NCBI RefSeq assembly: GCF_040784935.1
Contig: NZ_CP160680.1
Location: 3,876,501 to 3,940,500 of the forward strand
DNA: 64,000 nt
Source: Lewinella sp. LCG006
GTDB lineage: Bacteria > Bacteroidota > Bacteroidia > Chitinophagales > Saprospiraceae
Direction of reading: 5' to 3'
Within the stretch, counting starts at the first letter, position 1, and each line of letters begins with the position of its first letter. Shown here piece after piece: positions 8,520 to 22,331 of this stretch. The notes below the pieces were generated by a model. It saw only the letters and a program-made list of their open reading frames with translations, was not told the origin of the DNA and did not search any database. A program made the translations under genes and the position numbers.

Positions 8520-11500
8520 ATGTCGAAATTTCTACCATCTAGTCTGCTGCGAAAATTATTGGTTATTGGCCTCTTGGTATTGCCAGGGCTAGTAGCTGCT
8601 CAAAGGACAATCGTCTTAACTCAAAACGCGGGAGACGCGACAATAGGCCTAGACAGAAAAAATTTTGGCGGCCCCTACAGCCAAGGGTACCATCATGATT
8701 TTGACTTCGGTTCCAGTGTTAGCCCTTGTGAGCGCATTGTTTCGGTTAGTCTGGCGATATCCATTCAGAGTTTTAGCTCGAATATACCTCCAGGGTGCAG
8801 CCACTCTAGTGTTTACTATAACATTTATTATGGTTGCAATCCATACAACGGCACGGGAGGAACTTGCCCAACGGCCAACCTATTAAATGAACCTTTTTTC
8901 CCTCCTGGTGGTGCTCCCTATAATAGAACTTATAATTGTCCTGCGAATAATTTTGATTTTGGGGGCAACTTTAGTGCAGACATCGTACCCGTTTATTCGA
9001 CCGGATGTACTGACGGTCAGAATGCTATTATAGCAGGCCACGTGACCTATGCTTATACGATAACCGTAACCATTGAGACGGACTTGATTACCTGCACAGG
9101 CACGGGTTGCTTGGCTGGAACAACTACCGTTCAAGCCTGTGATGATGGTGATCCTTGTACATCCAATGATATGGAAACCATCCTGGATTGTGATGGTAGC
9201 ATCTGTGTGCCTTGTATGGGTACGCCTGTCGTAAGCTGTACCAATACGGTGACACTCCCTTGTGACGATAACGACCCCTGTACCGCCAACGATATGGAAG
9301 TGGTAGAGGCTTGTGACAATAGTGTGGTCTGCGTGCCCTGTGCAGGAACACCGGTGCCTTCGTGTACCATTACGACAAGTTTGCCCTGTGATGACAATGA
9401 CCCATGTACCATAAATGATGTAGAAATTGTCGAAGATTGCGACAATTCCATTGTATGTGTGCCTTGTGCGGGAACGCCGGTGCCTTCGTGTACTGTTACG
9501 ACGAGCTTGCCCTGTGATGATAACGACCCTTGTACAATCAATGATGTAGAAATTGTTGAAGATTGCGACAACTCCATCGTATGTGTGCCTTGTGCGGGAA
9601 CGCCAGTACCTATGTGTACCAATACCGTCACCTTACCCTGTGATGATGGAGACATTTGCACTGAAAACGATGTCGAAATCGTAGAAGCCTGTGACAACAG
9701 TATTATCTGTGTCCCTTGTGCCGGTGTACCCGTACCCGTTTGTACCAATACCATTACGTTGCCTTGTGATGACAACGACCCTTGTACAGAGAACGACGTA
9801 GAAATTGTCGAGGATTGTGATATCACTCAGGTTTGTGTGCCCTGTGCAGGAACGCCCATACCGGTTTGTACCAATACGATTGTTCTTCCCTGTGATGATG
9901 GCGACCCTTGTACCATAAATGACGTAGAAACCGTAGAAGATTGCGACATCTCGCAAATTTGTATTCCTTGTGCGGGTACTCCAGTAAATACTTGTGTAAA
10001 TACCATCACCCTTCCTTGTGACGACGGCGATCCTTGTACTGAAAATGATGTAGTTACGGTTGACGATTGTGATAATTCGCAAATCTGTATCCCTTGTCAG
10101 GGAACGCCCGTCACCACCTGTACCAACACCATTGTCCTCCCCTGCGATGATGGCAACCCTTGTACGGAGAATGACGTCCAAACGGTGGAGGACTGTGACA
10201 TCTCGCAGATTTGTATTCCTTGTGCAGGTACACCTATTGTAAGTTGTACATCAACGATCAGTCTTCCTTGTGACGATGGCAACGCTTGTACGACCAATGA
10301 CATGGTCATTGTCGAAGCCTGCGATAATAGTATTGTCTGTGTCCCTTGTCAGGGAATTGCACAAACCTGCGCTACTGGCCCTACTACTACGCAAGCTTGT
10401 GACGACGGCAATCCCGGTACCATCAACGATATGGAAACCATCCTTGATTGTGATGGCAGCATCTGTGTACCATGTATGGGTACGCCTGGCGATTGTAGTA
10501 CGACACCCACTACCACACAAGCTTGTGACGACGGTAACCCCTGTACCATCAACGACATGGAAACCATCCTCGACAGCGATGGTAGTATCTGTGTACCCTG
10601 TATGGGCGTGGTGCAAAATTGCAGTACTGGACCGACCTCGGTTGTTAGCTGCGATGACGGCAACCCCTGTACCATCAATGATGTGCAAACCATCCTTGAT
10701 TGTAATGGCAGCATCTGTGTGCCATGTATGGGCGTAGTGCAGGACTGTGCCACCGGTCCCACGACTACACTACCTTGTGACGACGGCAACCCTGCTACGA
10801 TCAATGATATGCAAACTATTCTAGATTGCGATGGTAGCATCTGTGTTCCCTGTATGGGCGTACCTGGCGATTGCTCCAATAGCCCCACTACCACCCAGGG
10901 CTGTGACGATGGCAACCCATGTACCATCAATGATATGGAGACCATTCTGGATGCCGATGGTAGTATTTGTGTACCATGCATGGGCATAGCACAGGATTGC
11001 GCCACGGGGCCTACGACGACACAAGCTTGTGATGATGGCAATCCTGCAACCATCAACGATATGGAAACCATCCTGAATTGCGATGGTAGCATCTGTATCC
11101 CTTGTATGGGTACACCCGGTGATTGTAGCACAGCACCGACTACAACCCAGGCTTGTGATGATGGTAACCCTTGTACCATCAATGATATGGAAACCATCCT
11201 GGATGCCGATGGTAGCATCTGTGTGCCTTGTATGGGTACGCCGACAGATTGTACAACGGGTACGACCTCCGTAGTTGCCTGTGACGATGGCAACCCCTGT
11301 ACCATCAATGATATGCAAACCATCCTTGATTGTGACGGTAGCATTTGCGTACCTTGTATGGGTACGGTATTAGATTGCAATACAGGGCCTAGCACTACGC
11401 AAGCCTGTGATGATGGCAATCCGTTTACGATCAACGACATGGAAACCATCCTCGATTGTGATGGTAGCATTTGTGTGCCCTGTATGGGCGAACCCGTAGA

Positions 11501-13685
11501 TTGTAACACGGGCACCACCACGGTTCAAGCCTGTGATGACGGCGATCCTTGTACGATCAATGACCAGGAAACGATTCTAGATGCCGACGGTTCGGTTTGT
11601 ATCCCTTGTAGCGGTACGCCTGCCCCTTGCGGCACGGATGGCAGCTGTGAGCAAGTCCAAGCCTGTGACGACGGCAACCCATGTACCATCAATGATGTAG
11701 AGACAATTCTTTTGTCAGATGGTAGCATTTGTGTGCCTTGTATGGGCACGCCTACAGATTGTAATACAGGTGCAACTTCCGTTGTTCCTTGTAATGATAA
11801 TAACCCCTGTACGATCAACGATGTACAGACCATCCTTGATTGTGACGGTAGCATCTGCGTACCCTGCATGGGTACCGTTTTAGATTGTAACACAGGGCCC
11901 AGCACCACGCAAGCCTGTGATGACGGCAATCCGTTTACGATCAACGACATGGAAACCATCCTCGATTGTGATGGTAGCATTTGTGTGCCCTGTATGGGCG
12001 AACCTGTAGATTGTAACACGGGCACCACCACGGTTCAAGCCTGTGATGATGGTGATCCCTGTACGATCAACGACCAGGAAACGATATTGGATGCCGACGG
12101 TTCGGTCTGTGTTCCTTGTACTGGTACACCTGCCCCTTGTGGCACGGATGGTGCTTGTGAGCAAGTCCAGGCCTGTGACGACGGCAACCCATGTACCATC
12201 AACGATGTAGAGACAATTCTTTTGTCAGACGGTAGCGTCTGTGTGCCTTGTATGGGCACGCCTACGGATTGTGCTACTGGTACAACTTCCGTTGTTCCTT
12301 GTAATGATAATAATCCCTGTACGATCAACGATGTACAGACGATCCTTAATTGCGACGGTAGCATCTGCGTACCTTGTATGGGTACCGTTTTAGATTGTAA
12401 CACGGGGCCTAGCACCACGCAAGCCTGTGATGACGGCAATCCGTTTACAATCAATGATGTAGAAACCATCCTCGATTGTGATGGTAGCATCTGTATCCCT
12501 TGTATGGGCGAACCTGTAGATTGTACCACGGGCACCACCACGGTTCAAGCCTGTGATGACGGCGATCCTTGTACGACCAATGACCAAGAAACGATTTTGG
12601 ATGCCGATGGTTCGGTCTGTGTTCCTTGTACCGGCACACCTGCCCCTTGTGGCACGGATGGTACTTGTGAGCAAGTCTTGCCATGTGACGACGGCGACCC
12701 CTGTACCATCAATGATGTAGAAACGATTCTCTTGTCAGATGGTAGCATTTGTGTACCCTGCGCTGGAACGATTCTCGATTGTAGCAACGGCCCCACCACT
12801 GTTCAAGCCTGTGATGATGGTGATCCTAATACCTTCAATGACCAGGAAACCATCCTCAACTGTGATGGCTCGATTTGTATCCCTTGTGCAGGCACACCGT
12901 GTAACCTTGATTTGGCACCGGTAATCAATACCACCAATGAAAGCTGTTTTGGTGAAAACGATGGTAGTATTGGCATCGAATCAGTGGCAGGTGGCCAGGA
13001 GCCTTACCTGTTCTCCCTCAATGGTGGTGCTTTTGTTACGGATGTCTTATTTGCTGGCCTTGCGCCAGGTGCTTACACTTTGACGGTGCAGGATGCAGAA
13101 GGCTGTGAATCCACTACGAATATCAGTATTTTACCAGCTGCTAACCTCTTCCTTATTTTGACGTCAGACGCAGTAGAAGATGAAGTACTTTTGGGAGATA
13201 GCGCACAGCTTTCTTTCACGACCAACGCAGTGATTGATACCATCATTTGGACTTTTGATCAAACCCTAAGTTGTACCGACTGTTTGGAACCTTTTGTGTC
13301 ACCTGAACAACAAACAGTTTATACGGTTACTGTCGTGGACGAAAATGGCTGTATTATAAGTGATGAAATTAGGATCTTTGTGGACAGAACGGAGCGCATC
13401 TACATTCCAAATATATTTTCGCCCAATGACGATGGTGTTAATGATGACTTTGTGATTTATGCGGGAGCTAATGTGAAGATGATTCGCCGCTTCCAAATAT
13501 TTGATCGCTGGGGAGGAGCTGTTCTTTCCTGGGAAGATATTCCGGCCAATGACAGCCAGTTTGGCTGGGACGGAACCTACCGCGGGGAGGACGTAAATCC
13601 GGGCGTTTACCTCTACGTAGTAGAAATAGAACTGACCGATGGCACGCTGCTGACCAAGACTGGAGAAGTAGTGCTGCTGAAGTAA
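8520..13685 (+). CDS. giant Cys-rich 30-repeat surface protein with T9SS type B tail
   Basis: The 1721-residue protein begins with a signal peptide (LLVIGLLVLPGLVAAQ, cleavage near residue 27). Residues ~28-194 form an N-terminal domain of beta-sandwich appearance. Residues 195-1460 are 30 tandem 42-44 residue units of the CDDGNPCTIND...CDGSICVPC type. Residues ~1461-1545 resemble a SprB-type repeat (NESCFGENDGSI), followed by an Ig/PKD-like stretch. From about 1626 a gliding-associated C-terminal domain follows (IYIPNIFSPNDDGVNDDF, FDRWGG, WDGTYRGE, PGVYLYVVE), the tail that directs T9SS export. It is most likely an extracellular, disulfide-stabilised stalk or adhesin, but ligand and role are unknown. 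A hairpin terminator follows, so it appears monocistronic. Confidence 0.88.
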   Translation: MSKFLPSSLLRKLLVIGLLVLPGLVAAQRTIVLTQNAGDATIGLDRKNFGGPYSQGYHHDFDFGSSVSPCERIVSVSLAISIQSFSSNIPPGCSHSSVYYNIYYGCNPYNGTGGTCPTANLLNEPFFPPGGAPYNRTYNCPANNFDFGGNFSADIVPVYSTGCTDGQNAIIAGHVTYAYTITVTIETDLITCTGTGCLAGTTTVQACDDGDPCTSNDMETILDCDGSICVPCMGTPVVSCTNTVTLPCDDNDPCTANDMEVVEACDNSVVCVPCAGTPVPSCTITTSLPCDDNDPCTINDVEIVEDCDNSIVCVPCAGTPVPSCTVTTSLPCDDNDPCTINDVEIVEDCDNSIVCVPCAGTPVPMCTNTVTLPCDDGDICTENDVEIVEACDNSIICVPCAGVPVPVCTNTITLPCDDNDPCTENDVEIVEDCDITQVCVPCAGTPIPVCTNTIVLPCDDGDPCTINDVETVEDCDISQICIPCAGTPVNTCVNTITLPCDDGDPCTENDVVTVDDCDNSQICIPCQGTPVTTCTNTIVLPCDDGNPCTENDVQTVEDCDISQICIPCAGTPIVSCTSTISLPCDDGNACTTNDMVIVEACDNSIVCVPCQGIAQTCATGPTTTQACDDGNPGTINDMETILDCDGSICVPCMGTPGDCSTTPTTTQACDDGNPCTINDMETILDSDGSICVPCMGVVQNCSTGPTSVVSCDDGNPCTINDVQTILDCNGSICVPCMGVVQDCATGPTTTLPCDDGNPATINDMQTILDCDGSICVPCMGVPGDCSNSPTTTQGCDDGNPCTINDMETILDADGSICVPCMGIAQDCATGPTTTQACDDGNPATINDMETILNCDGSICIPCMGTPGDCSTAPTTTQACDDGNPCTINDMETILDADGSICVPCMGTPTDCTTGTTSVVACDDGNPCTINDMQTILDCDGSICVPCMGTVLDCNTGPSTTQACDDGNPFTINDMETILDCDGSICVPCMGEPVDCNTGTTTVQACDDGDPCTINDQETILDADGSVCIPCSGTPAPCGTDGSCEQVQACDDGNPCTINDVETILLSDGSICVPCMGTPTDCNTGATSVVPCNDNNPCTINDVQTILDCDGSICVPCMGTVLDCNTGPSTTQACDDGNPFTINDMETILDCDGSICVPCMGEPVDCNTGTTTVQACDDGDPCTINDQETILDADGSVCVPCTGTPAPCGTDGACEQVQACDDGNPCTINDVETILLSDGSVCVPCMGTPTDCATGTTSVVPCNDNNPCTINDVQTILNCDGSICVPCMGTVLDCNTGPSTTQACDDGNPFTINDVETILDCDGSICIPCMGEPVDCTTGTTTVQACDDGDPCTTNDQETILDADGSVCVPCTGTPAPCGTDGTCEQVLPCDDGDPCTINDVETILLSDGSICVPCAGTILDCSNGPTTVQACDDGDPNTFNDQETILNCDGSICIPCAGTPCNLDLAPVINTTNESCFGENDGSIGIESVAGGQEPYLFSLNGGAFVTDVLFAGLAPGAYTLTVQDAEGCESTTNISILPAANLFLILTSDAVEDEVLLGDSAQLSFTTNAVIDTIIWTFDQTLSCTDCLEPFVSPEQQTVYTVTVVDENGCIISDEIRIFVDRTERIYIPNIFSPNDDGVNDDFVIYAGANVKMIRRFQIFDRWGGAVLSWEDIPANDSQFGWDGTYRGEDVNPGVYLYVVEIELTDGTLLTKTGEVVLLK
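9102..12899 (+). repeat. 30 tandem coding units of 126/132 bp
   Basis: The array is 3798 bases long and encodes exactly 1266 residues: 27 units of 42 residues and 3 of 44 (units 21, 25 and 29). Units 2-10 have the cysteine spacing C-x7-C-x5-C-x10-C-x5-C-x2-C. Units 11-30 have C-x9-C-x5-C-x10-C-x4-C-x2-C. The junction between the two classes is at 10362. Cysteines 1, 2, 5 and 6 are present in every unit; cysteines 3 and 4 vary. Because the period is a multiple of three, the antisense strand also stays open for long stretches, which creates spurious minus-strand frames. Confidence 0.95.
11370..12773 (+). repeat. 510-bp higher-order repeat, 2.75 copies
   Basis: Copies run 11370-11879, 11880-12389 and 12390-12773 (the last lacks its fourth unit). 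Each complete copy holds four units of 42, 42, 44 and 42 residues. The DNA is nearly identical between copies, including silent positions, so these are recent segmental duplications within the older 126-bp array. Confidence 0.92.
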
Positions 13686-13691
13686 AATAGT

Positions 13692-13730
13692 CCAAGTAGC
13701 ATTTGGTCTTTTAGGCCAAATGCTGCTTGG
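13692..13730 (+). terminator. hairpin downstream of the 30-repeat gene
   Basis: CCAAG-AGCATTTGG (13692-13706, one mismatch) pairs with CCAAATGCT-CTTGG (13716-13730). It starts 7 bases after the stop codon. No T-run follows, so it may be a factor-assisted terminator or an mRNA 3' end protector. Confidence 0.6.
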
Positions 13731-13904
13731 GAATATTAGTTGGTGAATGGTAGTAATATCACTACCTTTATAGGCTGAAACGAAGTTTTGTTTTTTGACG
13801 ACCTGATTGTAACTAATTTAATTTTAAGTGTTTAAGGTATTATTGCCATAAACCTTATTGATACGTATTACGACCTTAATTTTTTTATAACAAATTGTAA
13901 TCTT

Positions 13905-16900
13905 ATGCGACAAGCGAACTTTACGCTTTATCACGCATGGCGATGTTGCTTCGGCTTATTGCTCATGCTCGCCGTCCCTATCATTGGGGAGGCGCAAACC
14001 AATATCATCCACGGTGCAGGAGGCGTAGTGGAACCATTGAATGCCTGCGCCGACTTTTTCAGTGGAGACATTTACACCGATAGCGGTGGTGCTGGTAACA
14101 GTTATGCTAATAACGAAAACTTAGCATTGACGTTCTGTGCGGAGGCTGGTGAGACAGTGAGTTTTACCTTCAACTCTTTTAATGTTGAAAGTTGCTGCGA
14201 CCGGTTAGCGGTTACTGGAGCTGCCACAGGAAACGGGAATTATGCTGGTACCACTCTTCCTCCGGTCATTACATCTTCAGTAGGAGGCTGTATTACTTTT
14301 ACTTTCACATCTGATGGTTCGGTTACTCCAGCTGGATGGACCGCTACGATTTCTACATCTAGTGGATGTACAGGAAGTAATCAAGAGATTCAACATCGTC
14401 CTCCACCTGCCATTTACACGGCATGTAGCGACTTTGAAGATGGTGATACCTACACCGATAGTGGAGGGCCTGGTGGTAACTATAGCAATAATGAAAATAG
14501 TACTACTCAAATTTGTGCGGACGCTGGTGCAACAGTGACAGCTACTTTTGTTAGCTTTGCATTGGAGACCTGTTGTGATCGCTTAACGGTTTCTGGTGCT
14601 GCTACTGGTAATGGTACTTATACGACTACTCCTCCAGCGATTACTTCCACGGTCGGTGGATGTATCAACTTTAACTTTACCTCGGATATTTCAATAACCA
14701 GTTCTGGTTGGGTAGCTAATTTAACTACTTCGGTAGCTTGTGCTCCTCCTACTGCTGACATTACGTTCTGCGTAGATTTGACGTGTGAGGCCAATACTCC
14801 CGGCTTTGCTGCCCAGGCGATTGCTTTTGACTTCAACAGCTTCAACTCAGGTCCTACGCCTTTGACGAATACTGGTGATAATATCTGGTGTCGTACGGAG
14901 ACTTTACCTGTAGGTGAAGTACGTTATAATTTCTTCTATGCTGCAGCAGCAGGTGCCGGTGGCCCTGAGAACCTTGCTGGCTTGAACGGATCAGCTTGTA
15001 CCAGCACCGTTGCTGGTGAGGTAAAGCGTTCTTACACCGTAGTGGCGGGACAAAACGAAACGGTAACCTACGCCTGGGAAAGTTGTGACGCAACAGCAGC
15101 ATGTCTTACGGATATTGAGTTCTGTGTAGATCTCAGCTGTGAGGCAGATGCACCTGGCTTCGCTGCCCAGGGGCTTCAGGCCAGCTTTAACGGCTACAAC
15201 TCTGGTGGTTCACCACTAACGAATACCGGAAACAACATTTGGTGTCGCACAGAATCTTTGCCTGCGGGTGATATTCGCTTCGGTTTCTTCTATGCCGCCG
15301 CCGCTGGTGCTGGTGGCCCTGAAAACCTTGCCGAGCTGCCTTGTGCAACTCCTGGCGACGGAGGTTGGAAGCGCGACTACACGGTAGTAGAAGGTGTTTC
15401 AGAAACCCTTACCTACGCATGGGAAAGCTGTGAAGCAGAATCAGCTTGTGGTGCTTTAACAGATATTACCTTCTGTGTAGATTTTACTTGTGAAGCTGAC
15501 ATTCCAGGTTTCGCTGCCCAAGGACTTCAAGCGAACTTTAACAGTTTCAATTCTGGTGGTTCACCATTAACGAACACTGGAAACAACATTTGGTGTCGTA
15601 CGGAATCTTTACCTGCGGGTGATATTCGTTTCGGCTTCTTCTATGCTGCAGCAGCTGGTGCTGGTGGCCCTGAAAACCTGGTGGAACTACCTTGCGCTAC
15701 GGATGGTGCCGGTGGCTGGAAGCGCGACTACACGGTTGTAGCTGGTATGCCAGAAACACTGACTTACGCCTGGGAAAGCTGTGTGCCAGAAGCAGATTGT
15801 GGTATTCCTGGTGCGAGCGTCGAGTTCTGTGTAGACGCAAGCTGTTTACCAGACGTACAGAACGTAAGTATCTTCGGTGGATTCAACGGTTGGTGCGGAA
15901 GTTGTAACTTCTTGTCTGACGATGATGGCGACGGAATTTACTGTGGAACAATCTTCCTTGCTCCTGGTAACCAGGAATACAAGTTCCTCTTCAATGGTAT
16001 GGAGGAAAGTTTCTCTGAGGGTGATCCCTGTACGACGACTAACTTTGGTTTCACGAACCGTCTTATCGTAGTTGAAGACGGTGTTAACCAAATGGTTACT
16101 TTCGGCTTCAATAGCTGTGACGAAGTATGTACGCCTCCTCCGGGAGCGAATGTAGAATTCTGTGTAGATATTGGTTGTATCATGCCTACGGGTACGGTCA
16201 ACGTGTTCGGTATTTTCCCTAACTCGTTTTTCGATCCTTTCGCCAACCCAATGATGCAACAAGGACCAGAGTCAAGCATCTACTGTACGACGGTATTTCT
16301 GGAGCCTGGTGATACTGAATTCAAGTTCATCATTAACCCAGGGATGGGTGCAAGTGAAATCAACGAGAATTTCAGCGTAGGTGACCCTTGTACGGTTTCT
16401 TGTTGTGATGGCCAATTCACCAACCGTGTCATTACGGTGGTTGACGGTGTCGATCAAAACACCTCTTACGTCTTTGATGTACCCTGTGAAAGCACTTTTG
16501 AAGAGCCAACGGTAGAATTCCCTGCTTTGGCTACGATTTGTGACGGAACCTTCTCTTACACTTTCACCGGTGGCGCTACGCCAGCAGGTGGTGTTTACAG
16601 TGGTGAGGGTGTTACCGATAATGGTGATGGCACTTTTGATGTAGATCTAGCTGCTTTAGAACCAGGCGAATACACCGTTACTTACACCTTGATGGGTGAT
16701 TTAGCATGTGTTTACGAAGCAACTTCTACGCTAGTTGTAGAGGACTGTGGCGTCGCAATTACAGACCCTTGTTCTTGTAATGACGATGCATCTCCTATCA
16801 CTTTCGATGCAGCAGCAGGAACTTACGATAATCCTAACGATGGCACCTTTGGTGAAGTTGTAGCGATTACTGGCCCAATGGGCGCAGCATTACCTGCTGG

Positions 16901-19900
16901 TCTTGATTTTAGAGTAGTTAGCGCTACTGGAGCTATCGGTGTTGCCGCTGGTGATGCCCTGGTGTACAATGGTAGCATTTACACGATCGGATTTGATCAT
17001 GCCGATGATGTTGGTTATTCCTTGACGGTTGACCAGTTCATTAATGGTCAGGCTGTAGGATTCAATTTCATGATTGGTAATGCTTGTGCTTACCCAACAC
17101 CAGTATTTGATCCTGAATTAGACCCTATCTACTGTAATTTCGAAGGTGCGATCACCCTTGGTGGTACGGATGATGACGACATCAACGGACCTGATGGTGT
17201 GACCTTCACGATCAATGGTGTTGCAGCTACTGTATTTGACCCTACGGCTTTGCCTTCTGGTCTGAATACTGTAGTGATGACCTATACTGGTGCAGATGAT
17301 GGCAATGGTGGTGTTTCTGTTGATGGCGGAACTACACCAGCTTACCGCGGATGTACGCAGACGGTAGAAACAGTAATTGAAGTAGAGAACTTCGGTCCTG
17401 CTTGTGTCGCAGACCTAAACGTCACGCTCGGTGCAAACTGTACTTCTGTAATCAAGCCACAAATGGTATTGACAGGTAGATATGATTGTGCTGATGAAAT
17501 CATCGTAACGGTTGATGGAGGAAACACCGATGTAATTTCTGGTTGTGGTGCACACACCTACTCTGTAGATATCTTTGTTGCTGGTGAGCTCGTCTACACC
17601 TGTTGGGGTAATATCAACGCTGAAGACAAGACTGATCCTAAAATCGACTGCCCAGCGAACACAAGCACCGTAACGCAGGACTACGCTGCTCACCAAGCAA
17701 GTGGTAACCTCAATGCTGGTGATGCAACCTTGAACTTCAACAACTACAGCTGTTTGAACCAGGGCTTCCTGGCTGATGGTATCCACAACTATGACGTAGT
17801 AACTTTCACTACGCCAGACTTTGCTATTCCTGTTGACGTATACACGATCTTGATGGAAACTGCTTGGGGTGATGGAAGCATGTTCCTTTTCCAGGGCGGT
17901 TTCGATCCTACAGCACCATGTGAGAACCTCATCGGTTCTTCTGACGATGCTTTCGTACCTGGTGGAAATGTTTTCGATCCAGCACTACGTTTGAGCCTGC
18001 CTTTGTTGCCTAACACAACCTATACCTTGGTATTGACCAACTGGTTGACGACGCAGTTTGGTAACTGGACGGTAAGCATCTATTCTGATAACAACACGGG
18101 TGTTTCTGGTCCAGAGTTTACCCCTGTAAATATTACCGATACCCGTGATTTGGTATGTGAGGATATCGACTTCATCCGCTTCCAGACGCCTCAGTCATGG
18201 ATTGCAAGTGCAGATGGTACCTTGAACTTCACGGCTACGCGTAACACCTTCTTTGGAGGTAGCACTGCTGCTTTGAATGCTTTCATTGCAAAAGTAAACC
18301 TGACTGGTTTCCCTGTAGTTAGCGACAACTGTGGTCCGGTGAAAGTAACCCTTTCTGATGCAGTAAGCTCTGCAGGTGATTGTGGTGATGTAACGCTGAC
18401 GCGTACCTTCACGGTCTCAGACCGTTACGACGGTGCCTGTGTTGGTGCTCCTCGCGTAGTAGCATGTACACAGACGATTACCTTCCGTAAGCCAACGATT
18501 GGCGACTTGGTATTCCCACCATTTGTAGCTCCTTTGGAGTGTGATGAGAACTTCGCTGTTGATGCGAATGGCAACCCTCATCCATCTGCATCTGGCTACC
18601 CTTGGATTCGTACGGCATTTGGTTTCTACGACCTTGATCAGACTTACTGTAACATCGGTGCATCTTACTCTGATGAGCCACGTATCACTGTTTGTGAAGG
18701 TACTTACAAGCTCCGTCGTGAGTGGAACATCATCGACTGGTGTAACCCAGGTGGATCTGGTACCTTGAACCAATTGATCAAAGTATTTGATGCTACTGGT
18801 CCAGTTATTTCTGGTATTCCTAACGTAATCAACGTATCTACGTCACCATTCAGCTGTTTGGCGAACGTAGCGATTCCATGTCCTACCCTTACTGACGGCA
18901 ACGGATGTTCAAGCGTAGCTGGCACGACTTACACGGTATTGGCTTTCGGCGAATCATTCTTCGCTGGTGGTGACTTGTGTGACGGTGATGTAGTATCAGC
19001 ACCAATTGGTGAGCACATCCTGATCATCTGTGCCGAAGATGCTTGTGGTAACGAAACTTGTGAAGAATACACGGTAGTGGTTACCGACGACATCGAGCCA
19101 ACAGCTTCTTGTAACGACGACATCAACGTATCCATCGGTGGTGGTGATGTAGCCAACGGTATCGAAGGTATCGCGCGCCTCTTCGCTGCGGATGTTGACG
19201 AAGGTTCTAACGACAACTGTGGTGAAGTAACCTTGGAAGTACGTCGTAACTACTGGCGCAACAACACTTGTGATGCAAGTGCCAGCCGCTGGAGCCCATG
19301 GGGCGACTTTGTAGACTTCTACTGCTGTGATATCGACAACGAAATCACTATCGAACTACGGGTAACCGACGAAGCTGGCAACACCAACATTTGCTGGCAG
19401 GTTGTTACTCCAGAAGATAAATTGAACCCATTCTGCTACGCACCAGCACCAGTCACCTTGACTTGTTCTGATCTGCCATTGGCTTTCCCTGGTGATATTG
19501 CTACGGCTTACGACGAAGACTTTGCTGCTACTTCTACCATGATGAGCGCGATCTTCGGCGGTGCTACCGGTACAGACAACTGTGCGGTGGATACCATCGT
19601 AGAGCGTACGCCAAACTTGCAGGTTAACGATTGTGGTTGGGGAACCATCACGCGTCGTTTCGAAGCTTGGCAATTGCGCCCAGAGGGCGATGCTAACGGC
19701 AACGGAGCTATCGACATCAACGAAGTATACCGTTCGACGAACAGCTGTAGCCAGCTGATCACGATCACGGAAGTACACGACTTCACGATCGACTTCCCAG
19801 AAGATGCTGACGCTGATTGTGGTGATCCTGATGTACCAACGATCATTACGACCACTGTAGGTTGTGATGTATTGAGCGTAAACATTGGTGAGCCAGTGAT

Positions 19901-22331
19901 CTTCTCTGCTACGGGTGATGAGTGCTACAAGTTCTCGATCACTTACGATGTAATCAACTGGTGTGTTTGGGATGGTGAGTACGAAGGACTTGTTCTTCCT
20001 CGCATGACCGAAGACGACGGTGAGGCACTTCCTGTAGACCGTGCGGTAGAAGGCAACGAGCGCCCAGTAGTACGGGTGGTGAGTGGCTTTGGCCCAGTAG
20101 ACAACAACTGTGATGGTGTAGCTGATGCTCAGCAAGGCATCCAGTACAGCGTAGTGATCGATCGCCGCCACAATGACCGTGACGGAGATTCTGACATCGC
20201 TGATGTGATCTATGACAACATCCCAGGCAACACTCCTGGTTGTATTCCTGCTGACCAGTTTGGTCGTCGCAACTACGGTCGCTACATCTACACGCAATTT
20301 GTGAAAGTGTACGACTCTACCGCACCAGTGGTAGCAGTGGGAGAGTACGGTGGCCCAACGGCTAACTGCCCTAACCTGCTTCCTGGCCAGTTTGGTGATG
20401 ATGATGGTAACTGTGAAGAAGCAGTAAGCATTCCGTTCAGTGTATCTGACGAGTGTGAATTGTTTGACGGCGCAGGTAACCTGGTGGTAAGCATCGTATC
20501 TGCTGAGCTTGATGCTTTCGCAGTAGACGCTAACGGCGACGGCGACATCAAGTCGAACGAATTCGTAGCTGATCAGAACGTACTTTCCTTGATCACCGAC
20601 AACGGTGACGGCACTTACGTATTCGCAGGTACCTTCCCAATCATTACCAACGCGATGGGAGACAATGTCTACCACGCCGTACGCGTATTGTTTGAGGACG
20701 GTTGTGGTAACCAGACCAGCGAGACCATCGTGTTCGATGTGATCGACTGCAAAGGACCAGCACCAGTATGTATCAACGGCTTGACCGTAACCTTGATGCC
20801 TCAGGAAGATGGTGGTTGTGCGATGGCGATCTGGGCTTCTGACTTCGAAGGTTCACCAATCAGTGACTGTACTGGTCAGGGACCAGAACTGTTCGGTGGT
20901 CTACCTCGCGTGACGAAGTACGCTATCTACCGTGCAGCAGATGTAGAAGCTGATCCTAACTTCGTACCAAGCCCAGATGATACTGGATTGGTATTGACCG
21001 ATCAAGATGATCCTACAACGGTTGTCTACGTATACGCTTTCGACGAAGATGGTAACTACGACTACTGTGAGACTTATGTACTGGTACAGCAGCACGTTGA
21101 CTGTGGCGTTGGTGGCACTGGAACTATCCAGGGTGTTATCGCTACGGAAAGCAACGAGACAGTAGAAGGTGTAGAGGTGAGCATCAACGGCGGTATGTCT
21201 GCCATGATGGTAACCAATGCCAATGGAACGTACAACTTCAGCAACCTGGCTTTAGGAGGTGACTATACGGTTACTCCTTACCTGAACGCCAACCCACTGA
21301 ATGGTGTGTCTACCTTTGACCTGGTACTGATGAGCAAGCACATCCTTGGCGTACAGCCATTGGATAGCCCTTACAAGCGGATCGCAGCGGACATCAACCG
21401 TTCAAACACGATCACGACGCTGGATATGATCCAGTTGCGTAAGTTGATCTTGAACATTGATACGCAGTTTGCTAACAACACGAGCTGGCGCTTTGTGGAT
21501 GCAGCTTACGAGTTCCCTGTAGCGACGAACCCATGGTTCGAAGCATTCCCAGAGTTGATCAACGAGAACAACCTGGCGGGTGATGTACTGGATGCCGACT
21601 TCGTAGGTGTTAAGATTGGTGACGTAAACGGTTCTGCACAAGCCAATGCTTTGGCTGGTGACGATCGTACGTTGAACGGTCAGTTCAACTTCGAAGTAGA
21701 GAACGTAAGCGTGAAAGCTGGTAACGTATACACGGTAGCATTCCGTGGTGCTGATATGGCATCAGTAGAAGGCTTCCAGGGTACCTTGAACTTGAACGGA
21801 GCAGAGTTGGTAGACATCGAGTACGGTGTAGCTACAGCTGAGAACTTCGGTATGCGTTACGCTGCTGAAGGTATGATCACTGCTTCTTGGAACGGTAAAG
21901 CTACTTCTGAGGACGTATTGTTCAGCCTGGTAATCCGCCCAACAGTGGATGCTGAGTTGAGTGACGTAATCAACGTATCTAGCCGTTACACTGCTGCTGA
22001 AGCATACGGAAATGGTAACACCATGAACGTAGGCGTAAACTTCTCTAACGGAGCAGTTGCCGTAGCAGGTTTCGAAGTATACCAGAACACGCCAAACCCA
22101 TTCGCAGCAACAACCTTGATCGGTTTCAACTTGCCAGCGGATGCAGAAGCAACCGTAACGATCAGCGACGCTAGTGGTCGCGTACTGACTGTAGTACGTG
22201 GTGATTACGCAGCTGGTTACAACACGATCAACTTGACCAAGGAGATGATCCAAGGTGCAACGGGTGTATTGACTTACACGGTAACGGCCGGTGAGTTCAC
22301 TGCAACCAAGAAGATGATTGCTGTAAAGTAA
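13905..22331 (+). CDS. giant modular secreted protein with CUB-like, CBM-like, dockerin-like and cohesin-like parts and T9SS type A tail
   Basis: The protein has 2808 residues. A signal peptide ends near residue 31 (PIIGEAQ). Two CUB-like domains follow at ~40-145 and ~160-280 (paired CCDRL motifs). Three near-identical ~118-residue E-set/CBM48-like domains lie at ~284-636, and two divergent ones at ~636-865 (GGFNGW, EYKFLFNG). A long region of Ig/HYR-like modules carries DNCG and EWNIIDWCN signatures. A carboxypeptidase-regulatory-like fold (~2405-2460) precedes a dockerin-like pair (NGVSTFDLVLMSKHILG and ADINRSNTITTLDMIQLRK). A cohesin-like beta domain (~2595-2720) and a T9SS type A tail (YQNTPNPF) end the protein. 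It is likely surface-displayed and may bind glycans. Strong use of codons such as AAC, TTC and CGT suggests high expression. The UUCG hairpin after it ends the transcript. Confidence 0.87.
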   Translation: MRQANFTLYHAWRCCFGLLLMLAVPIIGEAQTNIIHGAGGVVEPLNACADFFSGDIYTDSGGAGNSYANNENLALTFCAEAGETVSFTFNSFNVESCCDRLAVTGAATGNGNYAGTTLPPVITSSVGGCITFTFTSDGSVTPAGWTATISTSSGCTGSNQEIQHRPPPAIYTACSDFEDGDTYTDSGGPGGNYSNNENSTTQICADAGATVTATFVSFALETCCDRLTVSGAATGNGTYTTTPPAITSTVGGCINFNFTSDISITSSGWVANLTTSVACAPPTADITFCVDLTCEANTPGFAAQAIAFDFNSFNSGPTPLTNTGDNIWCRTETLPVGEVRYNFFYAAAAGAGGPENLAGLNGSACTSTVAGEVKRSYTVVAGQNETVTYAWESCDATAACLTDIEFCVDLSCEADAPGFAAQGLQASFNGYNSGGSPLTNTGNNIWCRTESLPAGDIRFGFFYAAAAGAGGPENLAELPCATPGDGGWKRDYTVVEGVSETLTYAWESCEAESACGALTDITFCVDFTCEADIPGFAAQGLQANFNSFNSGGSPLTNTGNNIWCRTESLPAGDIRFGFFYAAAAGAGGPENLVELPCATDGAGGWKRDYTVVAGMPETLTYAWESCVPEADCGIPGASVEFCVDASCLPDVQNVSIFGGFNGWCGSCNFLSDDDGDGIYCGTIFLAPGNQEYKFLFNGMEESFSEGDPCTTTNFGFTNRLIVVEDGVNQMVTFGFNSCDEVCTPPPGANVEFCVDIGCIMPTGTVNVFGIFPNSFFDPFANPMMQQGPESSIYCTTVFLEPGDTEFKFIINPGMGASEINENFSVGDPCTVSCCDGQFTNRVITVVDGVDQNTSYVFDVPCESTFEEPTVEFPALATICDGTFSYTFTGGATPAGGVYSGEGVTDNGDGTFDVDLAALEPGEYTVTYTLMGDLACVYEATSTLVVEDCGVAITDPCSCNDDASPITFDAAAGTYDNPNDGTFGEVVAITGPMGAALPAGLDFRVVSATGAIGVAAGDALVYNGSIYTIGFDHADDVGYSLTVDQFINGQAVGFNFMIGNACAYPTPVFDPELDPIYCNFEGAITLGGTDDDDINGPDGVTFTINGVAATVFDPTALPSGLNTVVMTYTGADDGNGGVSVDGGTTPAYRGCTQTVETVIEVENFGPACVADLNVTLGANCTSVIKPQMVLTGRYDCADEIIVTVDGGNTDVISGCGAHTYSVDIFVAGELVYTCWGNINAEDKTDPKIDCPANTSTVTQDYAAHQASGNLNAGDATLNFNNYSCLNQGFLADGIHNYDVVTFTTPDFAIPVDVYTILMETAWGDGSMFLFQGGFDPTAPCENLIGSSDDAFVPGGNVFDPALRLSLPLLPNTTYTLVLTNWLTTQFGNWTVSIYSDNNTGVSGPEFTPVNITDTRDLVCEDIDFIRFQTPQSWIASADGTLNFTATRNTFFGGSTAALNAFIAKVNLTGFPVVSDNCGPVKVTLSDAVSSAGDCGDVTLTRTFTVSDRYDGACVGAPRVVACTQTITFRKPTIGDLVFPPFVAPLECDENFAVDANGNPHPSASGYPWIRTAFGFYDLDQTYCNIGASYSDEPRITVCEGTYKLRREWNIIDWCNPGGSGTLNQLIKVFDATGPVISGIPNVINVSTSPFSCLANVAIPCPTLTDGNGCSSVAGTTYTVLAFGESFFAGGDLCDGDVVSAPIGEHILIICAEDACGNETCEEYTVVVTDDIEPTASCNDDINVSIGGGDVANGIEGIARLFAADVDEGSNDNCGEVTLEVRRNYWRNNTCDASASRWSPWGDFVDFYCCDIDNEITIELRVTDEAGNTNICWQVVTPEDKLNPFCYAPAPVTLTCSDLPLAFPGDIATAYDEDFAATSTMMSAIFGGATGTDNCAVDTIVERTPNLQVNDCGWGTITRRFEAWQLRPEGDANGNGAIDINEVYRSTNSCSQLITITEVHDFTIDFPEDADADCGDPDVPTIITTTVGCDVLSVNIGEPVIFSATGDECYKFSITYDVINWCVWDGEYEGLVLPRMTEDDGEALPVDRAVEGNERPVVRVVSGFGPVDNNCDGVADAQQGIQYSVVIDRRHNDRDGDSDIADVIYDNIPGNTPGCIPADQFGRRNYGRYIYTQFVKVYDSTAPVVAVGEYGGPTANCPNLLPGQFGDDDGNCEEAVSIPFSVSDECELFDGAGNLVVSIVSAELDAFAVDANGDGDIKSNEFVADQNVLSLITDNGDGTYVFAGTFPIITNAMGDNVYHAVRVLFEDGCGNQTSETIVFDVIDCKGPAPVCINGLTVTLMPQEDGGCAMAIWASDFEGSPISDCTGQGPELFGGLPRVTKYAIYRAADVEADPNFVPSPDDTGLVLTDQDDPTTVVYVYAFDEDGNYDYCETYVLVQQHVDCGVGGTGTIQGVIATESNETVEGVEVSINGGMSAMMVTNANGTYNFSNLALGGDYTVTPYLNANPLNGVSTFDLVLMSKHILGVQPLDSPYKRIAADINRSNTITTLDMIQLRKLILNIDTQFANNTSWRFVDAAYEFPVATNPWFEAFPELINENNLAGDVLDADFVGVKIGDVNGSAQANALAGDDRTLNGQFNFEVENVSVKAGNVYTVAFRGADMASVEGFQGTLNLNGAELVDIEYGVATAENFGMRYAAEGMITASWNGKATSEDVLFSLVIRPTVDAELSDVINVSSRYTAAEAYGNGNTMNVGVNFSNGAVAVAGFEVYQNTPNPFAATTLIGFNLPADAEATVTISDASGRVLTVVRGDYAAGYNTINLTKEMIQGATGVLTYTVTAGEFTATKKMIAVK
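14755..15811 (+). repeat. three tandem copies of a ~118-residue CBM-like domain
   Basis: Copies start near 14755, 15105 and 15457. Each begins with an ITFCVD-type strand and ends with YAWESC. The segment from the WCRTE motif to the GAGGPENL motif is almost unchanged between copies, while the linkers differ. Two more distant relatives follow at about 15812 and 16141. Confidence 0.85.

Follow-up and report, generated by a model that had tools for sequence, protein, structure and literature searches.

The shaft of the adhesin SprB is composed of many SprB repeats. In Dictyostelium, the CTDC repeat is found in tandem in extracellular proteins and has a CDDGNxCT-like consensus, while the Sel1-like repeats of HcpC and HcpB are alpha-helical. 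In the latter two proteins of Helicobacter, disulfides are described to join consecutive tandem repeats (PMC3851747). TraA of Myxococcus, as far as its description is considered here, is composed of a variable beta head, a cysteine-rich beta-hairpin shaft that dozens of disulfides are predicted to stiffen, and a sorting tag (PMC12045341).

In this work we describe an array of thirty cysteine-rich units in Lewinella sp. LCG006. The DNA analysed, called the window below, is a stretch of 64,000 nucleotides (contig NZ_CP160680.1, positions 3,876,501 to 3,940,500). An earlier note on this stretch had recognised the repeats and had proposed that the third cysteine of one unit bonds to the fourth cysteine of the next. 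The evidence presented here makes it very probable that the protein is a disulfide-stapled rod, exported by the type IX secretion system (T9SS) and displaying an N-terminal beta head.

Domain organisation and export

The open reading frame at 8520-13685 has a hydrophobic, signal-peptide-like start, as judged by eye, and its features are the following.

8520..13685, plus strand: open reading frame of 1721 amino acids, with signal-peptide-like start, beta head, 30 cysteine-rich units, SprB repeat and CHU_C
8601..9137, plus strand: N-terminal head, residues 28-206 (about 180 amino acids), beta-rich in a middling model
9138..12935, plus strand: tandem array of 30 units of 41-44 amino acids each, with the register taken from C2
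12936..13034, plus strand: SprB repeat, PF13573, 34.4 bits against a cut-off of 28, E 1.6e-8 (tail scanned alone)
13401..13646, plus strand: CHU_C / T9SS type B sorting domain, PF13585 and TIGR04131

The sorting domain scores above the cut-off with both models (PF13585 1e-13, TIGR04131 7e-11; PF13585 6.7e-15 with the tail alone) and, judged by this domain, the protein is a T9SS type B cargo. The SprB match is absent from the whole-protein Pfam scan, and a single SprB stretch appears in the scan of the tail only. The genome encodes SprA, the T9SS translocon (TIGR04189, 2339.5 bits, cut-off 200). Among the tails of homologues, scanned for 10 of the 17 listed reading frames, nine carry CHU_C and the tenth Por_Secre_tail. 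The overall layout is read as head, shaft and surface anchor.

The head domain is common to many array proteins (e.g. those of loci L126, L048, L109 and L050), and L126 carries it twice, in the order head-array-head-array. No Pfam match was found for the three heads scanned. The repeat units match no accepted Pfam or NCBIfam family in whole-protein and piecewise scans; DUF6536 reached 20.7 bits on the repeats in the Pfam scan, below its cut-off of 23.7. A whole-protein search of the PDB identified no solved relative by sequence, its one match (E 0.8) being at the level of chance. The array protein holds 180 cysteines and could form up to 90 disulfides per chain; searches of the Lewinella sp. 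LCG006 genome gave one DsbA-like match and detected neither DsbB nor VKOR.

Just past the stop codon, at 13691-13731, there is a terminator-like element, consisting of a hairpin of 19 pairs and, after it, a tail weakly rich in T. The adjoining gene (13905-22331) encodes a 2808-amino acid protein, probably secreted too, in which CUB domains and, more weakly, regulatory-like and dockerin regions were matched.

Cysteine pattern in the window array

Cysteines are numbered C1 to C6 in the order used in the earlier note, with C3 in NPCT and C4 in LDCDGS. Parsing of the reading frame, with the first C2 at 9138, returned 30 units whose loss pattern agrees exactly with the one described there. C1, C2, C5 and C6 are invariant across the 30 units. 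C3 is missing in units 11, 14, 16, 19, 23, 27 and 30, where it is now G, A, A, F, F, F and N respectively, and C4 is missing in units 12, 15, 17, 20, 24 and 28, each directly after a C3-less unit. Units 21, 25 and 29 are also without C4, and only these follow a 44-amino acid unit with an extra cysteine (APCGTDGxC). The additional cysteine reported ahead of unit 1 is real as well, and is located just outside the start which had been given to the array.

9093..9095, plus strand: extra cysteine (ITC) lying 15 residues ahead of the C2 of unit 1 and a candidate to pair with C4 of that unit
10416..10418, plus strand: C3 of unit 11 replaced by Gly (GGT), with C4 of unit 12 replaced by Ser (AGC) at 10575-10577
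10794..10796, plus strand: C3 of unit 14 replaced by Ala (GCT), with C4 of unit 15 replaced by Ala (GCC) at 10953-10955
11046..11048, plus strand: C3 of unit 16 replaced by Ala (GCA), with C4 of unit 17 replaced by Ala (GCC) at 11205-11207
11424..11426, plus strand: C3 of unit 19 replaced by Phe (TTT), with C4 of unit 20 replaced by Ala (GCC) at 11583-11585
11934/12093 (units 23/24) and 12444/12603 (units 27/28), plus strand: copies of the loss in units 19/20
11646..11648, plus strand: extra linker cysteine located 6 residues ahead of C2 in unit 21, with C4 of that unit replaced by Ser (TCA) at 11715-11717
12156 (unit 25) and 12666 (unit 29), plus strand: copies of the extra linker cysteine
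12828..12830, plus strand: C3 of the last unit (30) replaced by Asn (AAT), without a successor unit

Units 23-28 show 87-98% DNA identity to the units four places earlier. As they are near-copies, the losses in 23/24 and 27/28 copy the one in 19/20, and junction 20/21 likewise has its counterparts in 24/25 and 28/29. The codons at the lost C3 sites are GGT, GCT, GCA, TTT and AAT, and those at the lost C4 sites AGC, GCC and TCA; taking together copies and codon differences, the window alone holds about four independent C3/C4 losses and one extra-cysteine event. By simple arithmetic, the naive chance of six lost C3 falling on exactly the six partnerless junctions out of 29 is 1 in 475,020, and with copies collapsed (4 of 21) it is about 1 in 6,000. 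Near-copies of this kind also favour an alternative explanation, in which the pattern is a by-product of tandem duplication, one module of two to four units having carried it by accident and having been amplified.

Homologue search and sample

In the window's own genome all 27 matches lie inside the reading frame 8520-13685. A search of 60 genomes at E <= 1e-6 gave matches in 9, including two from outside the family, and a family search at E <= 1e-12 gave matches in 65 of 398 genomes. The class sample and the phylum sample yielded one genome each out of 395, in both cases the window's own. The 34 loci of the species-level collection are about half Saprospiraceae, with one from Neolewinella persica, some from Myxococcales and others. 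Ten of them (L065-L067, L070, L071, L073, L074 and L076-L078), from Myxococcales, Byssovorax, Deltaproteobacteria or Proteobacteria, match the CDDGxxCT motif, and several of these have a spacing of about 24-28 or about 50 amino acids, resembling a shorter cousin of the unit.

Sampling in the genome search left out 14 of the 65 matching family genomes, and 60 longer stretches were taken, several repeating loci already sampled. A unit HMM was made from 29 of the 30 window units and re-estimated once on its matches, and every open frame of at least 60 amino acids was parsed. After removal of contained copies the array set comprised 81 reading frames with at least two units, mostly from the same family. 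One of these, L068, was dropped from later counts because of its differently built, mis-parsed units, and three junctions containing N were skipped; as two of the remaining 80 reading frames (L072 and L076) have no adjacent units, 78 arrays were retained. The 772-amino acid reading frame of L068 appears to carry a related repeat of a simpler subfamily, in which a shortened CxC hairpin (CDDGDxxTxxDVYQADCSCAGxxxDC) replaces CxxC; C3 is absent from all six of its parsed units.

No parsed unit lacks C2 or C6, and C5 is absent only in the differently built L068 and L076. C1, C2, C5 and C6 probably form two bonds within the unit, a pairing which rests on parsimony because the parsed units contain no informative loss.

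The junction rule across arrays

Out of 512 parsed junctions, 337 have C3 in the first unit, C4 in the following one and one cysteine in the linker, 112 have neither C3 nor C4 and one linker cysteine, and 58 have C3, no C4 and two linker cysteines. The other five (C3 absent, C4 present, no linker cysteine parsed) are all in L068. According to the earlier note, C3 of one unit and C4 of the next should not be lost independently in homologous arrays. This prediction held throughout: without L068, C3(n) and its partner in unit n+1, either C4 or the extra cysteine, occur together or are missing together at all 507 of 507 junctions, and none of the 78 arrays, 40 of which are informative, is discordant. 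The exactness is specific to the offset of +1, since discordant cases number 89/507 at -1, 282/589 at 0, 203/426 at +2 and 63/367 at +3.

The role of the extra cysteine as substitute partner, suggested for three window units, extends to the homologues. All 58 junctions that retain C3(n) but lack C4(n+1) contain it, and it never occurs beside a C4. In each of the 58 it precedes C2 by exactly 6 residues, while the spacing to the other linker cysteine is 4, 5, 6 or 7. The linkers carrying it are of at least three forms, e.g. APCGTDxxCExx, SSCxAxCTTT and DCSNVxCQTT.

Array copies and relatives share ancestry, so the 507 junctions are not 507 independent events. Single-linkage clustering of the 112 lost junctions gave 76, 43, 7 and 1 clusters at 90, 80, 70 and 60% identity, a range which bounds the number of separate losses only loosely. 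Collapse into a single cluster at 60%, together with the 1010 alternation of stapled and unstapled junctions seen in many arrays, is what tandem duplication would produce. On the other hand, the lost pairs show 27 residue combinations (with the C4 site placed five residues ahead of C5, an approximation in a few unit forms), and in the window the codons at lost sites differ. Lost junctions are spread over 11 of the 22 mapped genera and extra-cysteine junctions over 10 of them (11 loci are unmapped). When the partner string was rotated within each array, which keeps its periodicity, the 35 arrays with lost C3 gave a mean of 143.5 discordant junctions out of 383 and a minimum of 86 in 20,000 trials, never near the zero observed. 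The several linker forms of the extra-cysteine rescue also argue against one amplified module, and duplication as the source of the rule is in our judgement quite improbable. The absence of half-lost junctions is, in any case, independent of how many separate losses occurred.

The homologue arrays carry the window pattern far past chance. A later batch of 20 stretches added 13 new arrays with 33 of 33 junctions concordant; all of these are stapled and contribute no new loss, which makes this a weak test.

Spacing of missing staples

Two missing staples in a row were never seen, against 24.6 expected and a minimum of 11 in 10,000 within-array shuffles, which are uncorrected for the amplification of two-unit modules that may contribute to this spacing. 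As unstapled junctions are never consecutive, any unit flanked by parsed junctions on both sides is stapled to one of its neighbours or to both. Several of the alternating arrays run 1010101 over most of their length. Long stretches of such strict alternation are present in L057, L122, L134 and L115, hinting at a two-unit structural module.

Tentatively, and with somewhat less than even confidence, we propose that these observations reflect a lineage-restricted junction code with three states, a C3-C4 staple, a C3-linker staple or none, which is changed only by double replacement and does not allow two consecutive unstapled junctions; the staple pattern would tune stiffness or hinge spacing along the rod.

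Cysteine parity at the chain ends

If the junction cysteines are oxidised in pairs, the ends of each chain should balance as well. For the heads, the cysteines apart from C1 of unit 1, plus C4 of unit 1, sum to an even number in 16 of 16 (from 15 reading frames, L126 having two); a seventeenth, L123, was left out as no unit follows directly. C4 of the first unit is present in all 16, and the head result is thus a test of parity and not of paired loss. For the 46 tails, the cysteines following C6 are even in number in 15 of the 16 that lack the last C3 and odd in 22 of the 30 that have it; in tails shorter than 400 amino acids the figures are 13 of 13 and 12 of 15.

Parity is broken in 9 of 46 tails, 8 of 30 with the last C3 (even count) and 1 of 16 without (odd count). 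The eight exceptions with C3 are two L048 reading frames, where the head is split over two frames, L122, and five tails longer than 500 amino acids; the ninth is also a tail longer than 500. Some tails may be truncated at the end of the fetched stretch. In L108 and L133 the cysteine count of the whole tail is odd, as the parity rule predicts.

These counts bear on the possibility that the two junction cysteines bind a metal or another ligand rather than each other. The acidic CDDGNP loops beside C3 could, from their sequence, hold ions. Two cysteines alone make a poor metal site, an extracytoplasmic location favours cysteine oxidation, and the mostly even counts of heads and tails fit disulfides. 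Of the alternatives considered we regard ligand binding as the least probable, and hardly to be expected.

Predicted structure

A model of units 17-22 (window 11121-11915) was obtained with AlphaFold2 from 92 alignment rows of the window and related loci. Mean pLDDT is 91.7 and pTM 0.49, the latter leaving the relative placement of units uncertain. The model contains no helix and predicts an all-beta protein. In each modelled unit a strand of 5 residues directly precedes C2, strand B (9 residues, 19-27) follows C3, C4 sits in a turn, and C5 and C6 lie on a third strand, also of 9 residues. Strand B is thus predicted to lie between C3 (residue 18) and the C4 position (residue 29). A pairing of C3 with C4 inside one unit is disfavoured by this model, as the two are at opposite ends of the nine-residue strand and, by strand geometry, would be some 30 A apart. 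C3 of unit n, the C4 turn of unit n+1 and the cysteine at the foot of strand A would instead face one junction.

Foldseek comparison of the six-unit model with the PDB gave no convincing fold match (TM-scores of 0.02-0.14 among the matches listed). The head model is middling, with 10-residue blocks of 57-88. The head plus two units gave weak jelly-roll or beta-sandwich matches (Eph ligand-binding domains, the Cel9A CBM, virus capsid jelly rolls), with TM-scores of at most 0.33 to the query and 0.48 to the target among the matches listed.

The same covariation would arise if C3(n) were bonded to C4(n+1) of a neighbouring rod, giving a cross-linked sheet or fibre. An exact offset of +1 would in that case need perfect register between molecules, while the predicted strand order already has C3 ending one unit and C4 or the extra cysteine starting the next, and the chain ends mostly balance inside one protein. 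A bond between molecules is to our mind improbable, if marginally less so than duplication.

Bonding between consecutive units of one chain, the reading of the earlier note, is supported both by the co-loss in homologues and by the predicted strand order. The array would be the shaft of a cell-surface protein sent out by the T9SS. Each unit would fold as a three-stranded antiparallel sheet, with strand A running up to the C2/C3 loop on top, strand B running down to the bottom turn with C4, and strand C running up with C5 and C6. With the units stacked head to tail, the junction disulfide would run from the top of unit n, where C3 would lie, to the lower end of unit n+1, where the partner of C3 would be C4 in the B-C turn or the extra cysteine at the foot of strand A. 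A staple would be dropped only when both its halves are lost and never twice in succession, so that each unit would stay bonded to at least one neighbour. The resulting rod may be stiff, and the jelly-roll-like head, held by it at a distance from the cell, may serve in adhesion or binding.

Comparison with known systems

As a natural example of disulfide partners across repeats being indicated by covariation alone, the arrays are unusually clean. They supply hundreds of junctions in three states on one unit type, which gives direct access to a question that can rarely be tested, namely how a disulfide can disappear or change partner with no harmful single-cysteine intermediate. If the rods behave as proposed, they would constitute a modular stiff spacer with a built-in hinge pattern.

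Neither the junction rule nor the rule on consecutive staples was met in the literature searched, which is no proof of their being unpublished, and no paper was found there for the string CDDGDPCT. A literature search on thrombospondin type 3 repeats for comparison returned nothing. Eukaryotic cysteine-rich repeats were set aside, as the portion of the source considered gives no motif link to these units (PMC7379824).

With SprB-type T9SS adhesins the window protein shares the SprB repeat and CHU_C at its C-terminus; its shaft, in contrast, is made of 30 cysteine-rich units, and only one SprB stretch is present, in the tail. The likeness to the Dictyostelium CTDC repeat (PF00526) lies in the CDDGNxCT-like motif and the tandem extracellular arrangement, and weak matches were obtained in 9 of 22 two-unit pieces. 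Membership of PF00526 was rejected, since the best E-value of 0.021 is not significant and unrelated families score alike in that scan; the whole-protein scan had no PF00526 match at E <= 1.

The Sel1-like repeats of HcpC are helical, whereas the window array is predicted to be all-beta. HcpC and HcpB thus set a precedent for disulfides between repeats as a kind of bond; the portion of that report considered does not describe junction bonds that are optional and compensated (PMC3851747). What was not met in the searched literature is a junction rule that is both exact and optional and in which the partner can be relocated.

By its described layout, TraA is the nearest analogue that we met. The portion of the TraA report considered here states no junction pairing rule (PMC12045341), and TraA differs from the window protein in belonging to another phylum and in being sorted by MYXO-CTERM instead of the T9SS. 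Both appear to combine a beta-rich N-terminal recognition head, a cysteine-rich shaft and a C-terminal surface-sorting tag.
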